Of a stretch of DNA of 50,056 nucleotides, positions 30,017 through 48,436 are shown one piece after another. Location of the stretch: IMG/VR virus record IMGVR_UViG_3300024518_004078, positions 1 to 50,056 of that record; one strand, 5' to 3'. Made by a program: the position numbers and the translations under genes. The stretch comes from a virus. The number at the start of each line of letters is the position of its first letter. Position 1 is the stretch's first letter. The notes beneath the pieces were generated by a model. That model had not been told where the DNA came from. It saw only the letters and a program-made list of their open reading frames with translations, and ran no database searches.

Positions 30017-30282
30017 CACCGGGATCGATTTTGCCAGGGGCCTAAACTCTTTTTGTTTTTTCGAGGATCCGGATCCTCGACTTCATAAGTCTCAACGATC
30101 GCAACGTCCGTAAATTCCTCACCCGTAAAATCGAAAAACTCTCTTTTGACTTCCTCTCTTTTCAATAGCTTTTTGCCGTGAATAAAGACCGCAACATCCC
30201 CGGCGTCTACTGGCGTGAAGATATTTCCCATTTGTACCATGTCCGGCCCGCATCCTTTGTTTTTGTATACTGTTAGGGTCAT
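30013..30282 (-). CDS. Hypothetical protein
   Basis: 89 residues, alpha/beta, with a C-terminal basic tail. The start at 30282 is preferred to the in-frame one at 30384: AGGAAAT lies before it and it couples by ATGA to the zinc-ribbon gene upstream. A perfect 20-bp palindrome (30061-30080) lies in its coding sequence. No family recognised. Shares 4 bases with the convergent nuclease gene end. Confidence 0.6.
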   Translation of the reverse strand: MTLTVYKNKGCGPDMVQMGNIFTPVDAGDVAVFIHGKKLLKREEVKREFFDFTGEEFTDVAIVETYEVEDPDPRKNKKSLGPWQNRSRC

Positions 30283-30419
30283 TTTAATTTCCTGTCTTTG
30301 ATTATTTCCTGGATTACTAGGAGCGGCGAAGCGGATAAACATATAGGACAGACTAGCGTCTTTTTTCCTAGTTTTTCCCCGCATTCCTCACAAAATTGAT
30401 GTGGTATTATTGTTTCCAT
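30279..30419 (-). CDS. Small zinc-ribbon protein from the conserved promoter cassette
   Basis: 46 residues with CEECGEKLGKKTLVCPIC, a CxxC-13-CxxC zinc ribbon. AGGGAAAG precedes ATG 30419. The reading frame is open upstream to the transcription start: the first base of the predicted mRNA is the A of an in-frame ATG at 30455, which would add MMRDTQNTEGKK. The same leader occurs at 30843 and, in shorter form, at 44493. Function unknown, probably early. Confidence 0.6.
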   Translation of the reverse strand: METIIPHQFCEECGEKLGKKTLVCPICLSASPLLVIQEIIKDRKLK

Positions 30420-30461
30420 TTTCTTTCCCTCCGTGTTTTGTGTGTCCCTCATCATGAGGGA

Positions 30462-30490
30462 AATATAATACGGCGTGACGCCGGGGTCAA
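30462..30490 (-). promoter_or_regulatory. Minus promoter with internal palindrome (cassette copy 1)
   Basis: On the minus strand: TTGACC (30490-30485), 17 bp, TATATT (30467-30462). The spacer holds the palindrome CGGCGTCACGCCG. The predicted start is 30455, at ATGATGAGGGACACAC. Identical layout to copy 2 at 30886-30914. Confidence 0.75.
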
Positions 30491-30552: not shown

Positions 30553-30843
30553 TTAAGAAATATCCGCGCAAAAAACCCGGTTATAGGCTTGGATGCATTC
30601 GTCATTGATACACTCAGGAATCGAAGTGGCCGGGGTGCGTCGGTGCCCATCCCAGTGGTTCGCGGCGATATTCAGATCCCGGCAAATTTTGCTGATCGTG
30701 CCGTGGGGGGATTTGATCCATCCCGGAATATTTGCGGCGTTTCTTCCCCCGCGCGGCCCGCGAGTTGGGAGCGCGTCGATCTCCTCGATGTAAAGTTTTT
30801 TGATAAATTTGATTCTTTTTTCTAATAAGTCTGTTTTCGTCAT
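30553..30843 (-). CDS. Hypothetical protein from the conserved promoter cassette
   Basis: 96 residues. Basic, mixed helix and loop, with CRDLNIAANHWDGH that looks like a recognition helix or HNH-like remnant, but no complete motif. Start 30843 has GGAGGGAAAG before it. An in-frame extension MMRDTQNTEGKK begins at the predicted transcription start. Possibly a small DNA-binding early protein. Confidence 0.55.
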   Translation of the reverse strand: MTKTDLLEKRIKFIKKLYIEEIDALPTRGPRGGRNAANIPGWIKSPHGTISKICRDLNIAANHWDGHRRTPATSIPECINDECIQAYNRVFCADIS

Positions 30844-30885: not shown

Positions 30886-30914
30886 AATATAACACGGCGT
30901 GACGCCGGTTTCAA
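30886..30914 (-). promoter_or_regulatory. Minus promoter with internal palindrome (cassette copy 2)
   Basis: On the minus strand: TTGAAA (30914-30909), 17 bp, TATATT (30891-30886). The spacer holds CGGCGTCACGCCG. The predicted start is about 30879, again at ATGATGAGGGACACAC. The leader is identical to copy 1 through GAGGGAAAGAAAATG. Confidence 0.75.
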
Positions 30915-31230: not shown

Positions 31231-32043
31231 TCACCTCCGTGCCAAAAAACCATTTTCGATCATCTCTCGATAATACTCCCCGGTTACCCGTTCGAACTCA
31301 CCATACCGGATCCCGGCTGCGTCGGTTTTACGTTTTGTCAGATGCATATGGAGAAGCAACCCATTGTGTTTCAGCGGCTTTTTAATATCCCGAAGCGGAA
31401 TTTCTCCAAACTGATCAGAAGGAAAAGCCGGAGCGATAGCGATCAAATCCCTTAACGTCGCCCTAGCTGCCCATAGGCCCGCGCACAGCCGCGCCATCGA
31501 GTCGATCTGTATGTCTGGCATGTGAAAGACCTTGCGGTCCCTCCCGCGAATCGTCTGCTCGATCACTTCATGGGGTGCGAGTCCTAAACGTTTGCATCTC
31601 GCTTCTGAGTATGCATTTGGCCGGAGGTCTGCCCAAGGATAGAGCACGTTTTCTATTCCGGGGCCGTGTGGGTTGGCCTTCCCAGCGTGCCAGGCGTATT
31701 CGACGGCGTCCAGGCATTGAAAGATCGTGCCGTAGTCGGAATTGATAAACGGCACCGATAGGCCGCGCTCTTTGTGCAAGGTATCAAAACACGTACGCGC
31801 GCGATATCCGCCGGTATGATGGATCGTTATCAGGTTGAATTTTTTCAAACCTTTTTCTAAATTGCGCGGAGTGTATCTTTTTCCCTTGACAATTACAATT
31901 TTGTCTTTTCCGGTTTTTCGATCTTCGGTTTTGTGGATATATTTCGTGGTGTCGTATCCGTCGAATCCGTTTCGCGAATCCCAGCGGAGGACCGGGACGC
32001 CAATATCGAATTTTACCCCGGCTACTGTTATGCATGTTGGCAT
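31231..32043 (-). CDS. N-acetylmuramoyl-L-alanine amidase, Amidase_2 family
   Basis: 270 residues. It cleaves the amide bond between MurNAc and the stem peptide. Zinc ligands: His75 or His76 in LITIHHTGG, His234 (or His232) in LLHMHLTKRKTDAAG and Asp241. Also NSDYGTIFQCLDAVEYAWHA (101-120) of the family. No signal peptide, so it would need a hole or spanin route, or act in another way. It lies in the early minus operon, away from the transglycosylase. Confidence 0.85.
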   Translation of the reverse strand: MPTCITVAGVKFDIGVPVLRWDSRNGFDGYDTTKYIHKTEDRKTGKDKIVIVKGKRYTPRNLEKGLKKFNLITIHHTGGYRARTCFDTLHKERGLSVPFINSDYGTIFQCLDAVEYAWHAGKANPHGPGIENVLYPWADLRPNAYSEARCKRLGLAPHEVIEQTIRGRDRKVFHMPDIQIDSMARLCAGLWAARATLRDLIAIAPAFPSDQFGEIPLRDIKKPLKHNGLLLHMHLTKRKTDAAGIRYGEFERVTGEYYREMIENGFLARR

Positions 32044-42585: not shown

Positions 42586-42612
42586 AGTTGTTTTGCCTCG
42601 ACATTCATTATT

Positions 42613-44087: not shown

Positions 44088-44266
44088 CTTTCCCTCTTCT
44101 TTTCGATCGCCTCGATACACTGTTTAATCCAACCTTTTGCGAAGTCACCCAGTCCCTCACCATCTAGTGCCTCGTCAATCATCACTATTGGATCGATTCC
44201 CCTCTTTATGCTCTCATCGGCGGAATCGCGCCCGGTTTCATATCTGGTTTTTTTCGGTTTTTTCAT
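44084..44266 (-). CDS. Hypothetical helical protein
   Basis: 60 residues, basic N-terminus (MKKPKKTRY), acidic middle and helical end. The start at 44266 rather than 44428 is chosen by ATGA coupling. Function unknown. Confidence 0.5.
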   Translation of the reverse strand: MKKPKKTRYETGRDSADESIKRGIDPIVMIDEALDGEGLGDFAKGWIKQCIEAIEKKRER

Positions 44267-44493
44267 CCCATCACCTCCAAAATCCGACGCAACTCCCCGG
44301 TAAACCCTCCGGCCGCGCACACCGACGGGATCCCGGTTTTCAGTGAGATCGATATATTTCCTATAACAGCCTTCGTGCCCCGGATATTTTTTTTGACAAA
44401 AACTTTCGTCTCGTCTCTGCCTTCCCAAATAAATCCGGATAACCCCGATCCGATGACGGCAGTTAGGATCTCGCTTGCTTTTTCCATTTTCAT
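44263..44493 (-). CDS. Hypothetical protein from the conserved promoter cassette (copy 3)
   Basis: 76 residues, alpha/beta, with a Gly-rich loop (IGSGLSGFIWEG) but no Walker motif. GGGGACGAA precedes ATG 44493 (44487 is an alternative). The frame is open back to an ATG at 44523, the predicted transcription start, and would add MMRDTNKGDE, the same MMRDT start as in the genes at 30419 and 30843. First gene of the operon that continues to 42613. Confidence 0.6.
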   Translation of the reverse strand: MKMEKASEILTAVIGSGLSGFIWEGRDETKVFVKKNIRGTKAVIGNISISLKTGIPSVCAAGGFTGELRRILEVMG

Positions 44494-44530: not shown

Positions 44531-44559
44531 GTTATGTCACGGTCTTGAGCCGTGGTCAA
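44531..44559 (-). promoter_or_regulatory. Minus promoter with internal inverted repeat (cassette copy 3)
   Basis: On the minus strand: TTGACC (44559-44554), 17 bp, CATAAC (44536-44531). The spacer holds CACGG...CCGTG. The predicted start is ATGATGAGGGACACAAAC at 44523, as in copies 1 and 2. Confidence 0.65.
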
Positions 44560-47381: not shown

Positions 47382-47567
47382 ATGCCACCAAATATAGAGA
47401 AATACCGCCCCACCAATCGAGAGAAATCCAAAGCAGACAACCGGCGGTGTTTGCATTGGTGTTATAGTTGCGACATGGAGAGAGTAGGGGCCGTGGGCAA
47501 GTGTCCGTTCTGCGGAAACAGAAATAACAGGAAAAAGAGAATCGATCCCCACCTAGAGGCCCATTAA
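47382..47567 (+). CDS. Small zinc-finger protein, possibly leaderless
   Basis: 61 residues: CLHWCYSC and CPFCG give Cys pairs separated by 13 or so residues. Basic with many Arg/Lys/Asn. No Shine-Dalgarno precedes the ATG, which lies at the predicted transcription start. It is followed one base later by a larger basic protein that begins with similar codons (ATGCCACCA). Function unknown. Confidence 0.55.
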   Translation: MPPNIEKYRPTNREKSKADNRRCLHWCYSCDMERVGAVGKCPFCGNRNNRKKRIDPHLEAH

Positions 47568-48285: not shown

Positions 48286-48325
48286 AAATGACGGGATCCG
48301 GTGTGGGCCGTCACCCGTGCCGGTG

Positions 48326-48405
48326 GGAATTGTAGTTTAATAGGCAAAACACGTTCAGTTATCCGGATTAATTGAGCAGATTCCGGTTCGACTCCGGGCG
48401 ATTCG
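48326..48405 (+). tRNA. tRNA-like element (atypical anticodon arm)
   Basis: Acceptor GGAATTG pairs with CGATTCG (6 of 7), then TA, D-arm GTTT/AAAC with loop AATAGGCA, T-arm TCCGG-TTCGACT-CCGGG, and CTATTTTTTT after it. The D- and T-arms are fully tRNA-like. In between there is no 5-bp anticodon stem with a 7-base loop and U33. Instead a 9-bp hairpin GTTCAGTTA/TAATTGAGC holds the loop TCCGGAT (48053-equivalent region 48353-48377). No CCA is encoded. It may be a decayed tRNA, an att-type relic or a tRNA mimic. Confidence 0.45.
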
Positions 48406-48436
48406 CTATTTTTTTGAGCAATGAAAAGGGGAAATT

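Follow-up and report, generated by a model that had tools for sequence, protein, structure and literature searches.

A recurrent phage cassette that probably produces mRNAs with a leaderless and a Shine-Dalgarno start in one frame

Does an ATG that sits where transcription should begin serve a phage as a start codon when a second, Shine-Dalgarno (SD)-preceded ATG follows close behind it? An earlier note on this DNA had described a promoter cassette with such an ATG, recurring three times, and had proposed that its frame is under selection, either because leaderless translation adds the residues MMRDT to the protein or because the 5' end of the mRNA is a shared regulatory tag. Here, we report an analysis of the cassette in the window (the whole stretch of 50,056 nt) and in other viral contigs. 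Our reading, which we hold with a probability of roughly three in four, is that the cassette makes a dual-start mRNA, in which a leaderless 5'-terminal AUG and the SD start read into one frame.

The recurrence was borne out, with three exact matches to ATGATGAGGGACAC in the window, every one on the minus strand (Table 1) and with its first ATG 6, 6, and 7 nt after the -10 box in copies 1, 2, and 3. As the note had said, this ATG was in frame with the gene in all three, the SD-preceded ATG lying 36, 36, and 30 nt further on. Each copy had a sigma-70-type promoter (TTGACA-17-TATAAT-like, 17-nt spacer, at most 3 mismatches in total), and the sequence upstream of the first ATG was promoter sequence only, with no SD. 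Other details of the note stood in part: the TTGACC -35 box is found in copies 1 and 3, but copy 2 has TTGAAA; the spacer palindrome is exact (CGGCGTCACGCCG) in copies 1 and 2 only, copy 3 having CACGGctcaagaCCGTG; and the -10 box after a 17-bp spacer is TATATT in copies 1 and 2 but a weak CATAAC in copy 3. Copies 1 and 2 belong to a single duplicated block of ~75 nt (91% identity), which leaves two independent cases and makes the in-frame argument weak when it is confined to the window. A candidate hairpin where copy 1 begins (CCCTCATGATGAGGG) was rejected, since one of its halves falls upstream of the predicted 5' end and copies 2 and 3 have none.

Table 1. Positions of the cassette elements and associated genes in the window
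Feature	Position	Strand	Remarks
ATGATGAGGGACAC, copy 1	30455-30442	-	Predicted transcription start and leaderless start codon; position deduced from the -10 box
ATGATGAGGGACAC, copy 2	30879-30866	-	Predicted 5'-terminal, from the -10 box
ATGATGAGGGACAC, copy 3	44523-44510	-	10 codons (30 nt) upstream of the SD-led ATG; predicted 5'-terminal
Copy 1 -35 box, TTGACC	30485..30490	-	Sequence
Copy 1 -10 box, TATATT	30462..30467	-	17-nt spacer with palindrome CGGCGTCACGCCG, candidate operator
Copy 1 SD-led second start codon (GGAGGGAAAGAAAATG)	30417..30419	-	36 nt downstream, in frame
Gene behind copy 1	30279..30419	-	46 aa, or 58 aa counted from the 5' ATG; resembles a zinc ribbon (CxxC...CxxC), with scores under the Pfam cut-offs
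Copy 2 -35 box, TTGAAA	30909..30914	-	Sequence
Copy 2 -10 box, TATATT	30886..30891	-	17-nt spacer containing CGGCGTCACGCCG
Gene behind copy 2	30553..30843	-	SD start at 30843, 96 aa (108 aa from the 5' ATG)
Copy 3 -35 box, TTGACC	44554..44559	-	Sequence
Copy 3 weak -10 box, CATAAC	44531..44536	-	17-nt spacer containing CACGGctcaagaCCGTG
Gene behind copy 3	44263..44493	-	76 aa (SD start) or 86 aa (5' ATG)
Candidate pure leaderless gene	47382..47567	+	GTGACA-17-TATACT-6-ATG, no room for an SD

No Pfam family was found for the gene behind copy 2. Comparison of the window phage with named phages by DNA found no relatives, nor did a search of viral contigs with the neighbouring 270-aa gene (31231-32043) as query; its terminase was at most ~33% identical to its matches, from Wolbachia WO and Rhodobacter phages. 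The window also holds a tRNA-Pro (cgg) gene (48325-48407, plus strand).

Four promoter spacers in the window (30471, 30895, 44538, and 45019) had in common a partly palindromic motif, CGG-N-TCA-N-CC. The fourth promoter (45024-44975, minus strand), with the operator-like spacer CACGGTCTCACGCCTGG, precedes an ordinary leader without a 5' ATG, and that a sister promoter has the motif but lacks the ATG is a point against the dual-start reading. Together, the motif and this promoter suggest a common phage regulator that would act between the -35 and -10 boxes, separate from the start-codon feature.

Viral contigs were scanned for the exact 14-mer, and viral and prokaryote contigs for the 14-mer with TTGA at promoter distance. 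Among the matches listed and inspected, promoter, exact 14-mer, and SD start came together only in the window and in G001, a 98,187-bp contig (GC content, 63%) unrelated to the window phage and with no near DNA match among named phages; the remaining exact matches inspected, viral and prokaryote, looked like coding sequence or had no promoter and were discarded. G001 carried at least eight cassettes (TTGACA-17-CACACT-GTAACC-ATGATGA...), four of them with the exact 14-mer. Six led to an SD start through leaders of 33, 33, 36, 36, 42, and 42 nt, all in frame, and two had no nearby SD start, one of which (L071:6845) entered its gene directly, in leaderless form (MMNETNTNTEYKILGV...). A degenerate motif scan of contigs found G004, a 94-kb distant relative of G001 with five cassettes, three with in-frame leaders (39, 36, and 33 nt), one whose leader ends at a stop 5 nt upstream of the ATG of its gene, and one with a short open frame. 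In a gene common to both contigs (24/33 residues identical), the leaders, both in frame, differed in length (36 versus 33 nt), which, judged from the two sequences, is a codon-sized change that keeps the frame. At L071:1391-1540, a leaderless frame of 47 codons crosses a T-arm-like sequence (GGGTTCGACTCCC) ahead of the likely start of the gene; no tRNA is called at this site by ARAGORN.

A wider, promoter-anchored scan of viral contigs (5 to 7 nt after the -10 box, then ATGATGAnnGA) placed no requirement on a downstream start, and frames were counted where a strong SD and an open frame of at least 40 codons were present. Relative to the 5' ATG, the strong-SD starts among the viral matches listed fell 51:4:3 (in frame first), a count that the open-frame criterion tilts slightly toward in-frame calls, by a few of the 51 at most according to an internal control. 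No such bias was seen in a control scan with the element placed 10 nt further downstream (2:3:3). Representatives of the 47 downstream-protein families among the matches listed gave 40:4:3 (P = 3.3e-13 against 1/3). One of the seven exceptions (L346) was a miscall whose proper start, at +24, is in frame; in the other six, a stop ended the upstream frame at -2 to +14 nt relative to the start, TAATG and ATGA overlaps included. The in-frame majority and the stop-closed exceptions point to a rule by which the upstream frame either joins the gene in frame or stops at its start. Selection on the frame, as proposed in the earlier note, is thereby supported, and the free shifting of the leader frame in related phages that the note had named as contrary evidence was looked for and does not hold.

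Given the predicted 5' end, an SD start followed a 5'-terminal AUG in all three window copies and in 58 listed viral cassettes, and the matches listed were spread over many contigs, several of which had more than one cassette (L335, L351, L307, L324, L312, and L356). Across 399 Pseudomonadota genomes, the cassette pattern occurred twice, at about chance level, and the cassette thus looks like a phage habit. Scans of lambda, T4, phage 121Q, and others for a -10-adjacent ATG gave few or chance-level matches, and when named phages were searched with the short cassette, most matches covered only part of it, either the promoter or the SD portion.

The position and composition of the first start codon agree with leaderless initiation. 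Behind consensus promoters in the viral matches listed, taken with no condition on frame, ATGATG and ATGAAA both peaked 6 nt after the -10 box; this pile-up fits leaderless starts being common in viral contigs, and in phages they seem to be so. Over 13 cassettes from three phages, the tract after the first codons was 51% A, 44% C, and 5% G, with T at 0 of 189 nt, and the cassette 5' ends folded weakly. Weak structure and a CA-rich tract after the start favour leaderless initiation without strictly defining it, and CA repeats after the start codon raise leaderless translation (PMC9031893). In E. coli, 5'-terminal AUGs on SD-bearing mRNAs bind 70S ribosomes and initiate translation (PMC4965119); for the phage cassette, the frame bias supports such initiation indirectly. 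The efficiency of such a start could drop if transcription began one to three bases off. The candidate pure leaderless gene in the window encodes 61 aa with two CxxC pairs and heads a rightward gene group. At 42604 (minus strand), TTGACA-17-TAAAAT-5-ATG opens a six-codon frame (MSRQNN, stop) followed by a hairpin (GGCGACTCCGGTCGCC), a possible leaderless upstream open reading frame (ORF).

Under the dual-start reading, the sigma-70-type promoter would put AUGAUG at the 5' end of the mRNA, or within a nucleotide or two of it, ahead of the CA-rich, T-free tract that leaderless starts are known to like. Ribosomes would load either directly on this AUG or on the SD-led AUG 30 to 36 nt further in, and, because both starts have one frame in common, either would yield the gene product, as a short form or as a form with 10 to 12 extra residues (MMRDT...). 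In other phages, a stop overlapping or adjoining the gene start would close the upstream frame, letting the first ribosome re-initiate. The likely benefit would be that phage genes are translated quickly or robustly without depending on one initiation route.

It is unlikely, in our judgement, that the 5' ATGATG is the sole real start of a leaderless gene and the inner SD-ATG a chance internal methionine. Many cassettes do enter a long open frame with no nearby SD start (L071:6845, L216, L231, and L247), and the window has one candidate for such a gene (+47382). Against this, SD-ATGs were concentrated at +15 to +61 (58 of the 149 matches listed) versus 8 of 149 at +75 to +121, deeper in the gene; most inner starts in the window, G001, and G004 have a GGAGG-type SD at normal spacing; and G001 and G004 are homologous from near the inner start onward, the leader not being included. 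The pure leaderless genes at the same offset weigh in turn on the proposal that the element is a transcription-only DNA or RNA signal (an initial transcribed sequence or a phage regulator site), with ATG and frame incidental, which does not predict them, nor the 51:4:3 bias with its stop-at-start exceptions. We consider that proposal quite improbable, even with a 14-mer conserved at the nucleotide level, no synonymous changes seen among the copies, and an operator-like motif common to the promoter spacers.

Conservation of the leader could also reflect what it encodes. That the MMRDT extension is a functional peptide tag, selection keeping the protein sequence, draws on its presence in both the window phage and the unrelated G001, yet the 14-mer is identical between the two at every third position, AGG arginine codon included, despite their different base composition. 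Variants in G001 and G004 alter the residues (R to T or N; D to H, E, or G; T to A), with AUGAUG and the CA-rich character of the RNA retained, and other phages have unrelated leaders (MMNEGVNE, MMIEKE, and MMKERD); the idea that the peptide is what is selected is not supported, and we give it very little credence. Just as slight is the chance that the leader is a regulatory, attenuator-like upstream ORF. Upstream frames do end at the start in some relatives (L217:1969, L284, L322, and L333), and the window has the possible six-codon upstream ORF at 42604, but none of the three cassette leaders in the window is closed, each being fused to its gene; they show neither a strong hairpin nor a run of regulatory codons, and the short closed ORF plus terminator/anti-terminator hairpin of a leader-peptide attenuator is absent from them; a search of the leader against Rfam gave no match. 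The third-position identity, the amino-acid-changing variants, and the unrelated leader peptides elsewhere make the RNA start region the more likely object of selection, and the conserved part looks, from these sequences, like an RNA initiation signal and not a peptide. The dual-start reading joins the two options of the earlier note, leaderless translation and a shared 5' tag, which appear to be right together, the conserved RNA tag being itself a start site.

Literature searches for the motif found nothing relevant; three described systems bear a likeness to it. The nearest in layout are the E. coli mRNAs of Beck, Fleming and Janssen 2016 (PMC4965119), which have a 5'-end AUG plus an SD start and include rhaB, with an ATGA overlap of upstream frame and gene. 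There, out-of-frame cases were chosen on purpose, whereas here the frame was kept in 51 of 58 viral matches listed, and the cassette is conserved, repeated, and found in phages. Natural leaderless mRNAs (lambda cI; PMC9031893) likewise have the start codon at the predicted 5' end, weak structure, and a CA-rich tract, but in the cassette another start, SD-led and in frame, comes within 18 to 51 nt. The "-10 adjacent to the ORF" mode of leaderless expression of Deinococcus-Thermus (PMC12340547) starts transcription at the start codon through placement of the -10 box, as predicted here; it concerns cellular genes with one start, and that paper mentions neither phages nor in-frame dual starts. The class to which the cassette belongs, a 5'-terminal AUG plus an SD, is known but little studied, and the cassette is a variant of it that recurs in phages.

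Gene callers pick one start per gene, inner or outer, and proteins made in two forms are missed as a result. A conserved cassette that keeps its frame offers a natural system for probing leaderless initiation during phage infection, a setting in which the role of this mode has been little studied. It is an even bet, in our view, that many unrelated phages rely on dual-start mRNAs as a standing strategy, in which a portable cassette is copied before several genes, in-frame joining or a stop at the start is selected, and the genes are translated by any initiation route that remains available in the infected cell.
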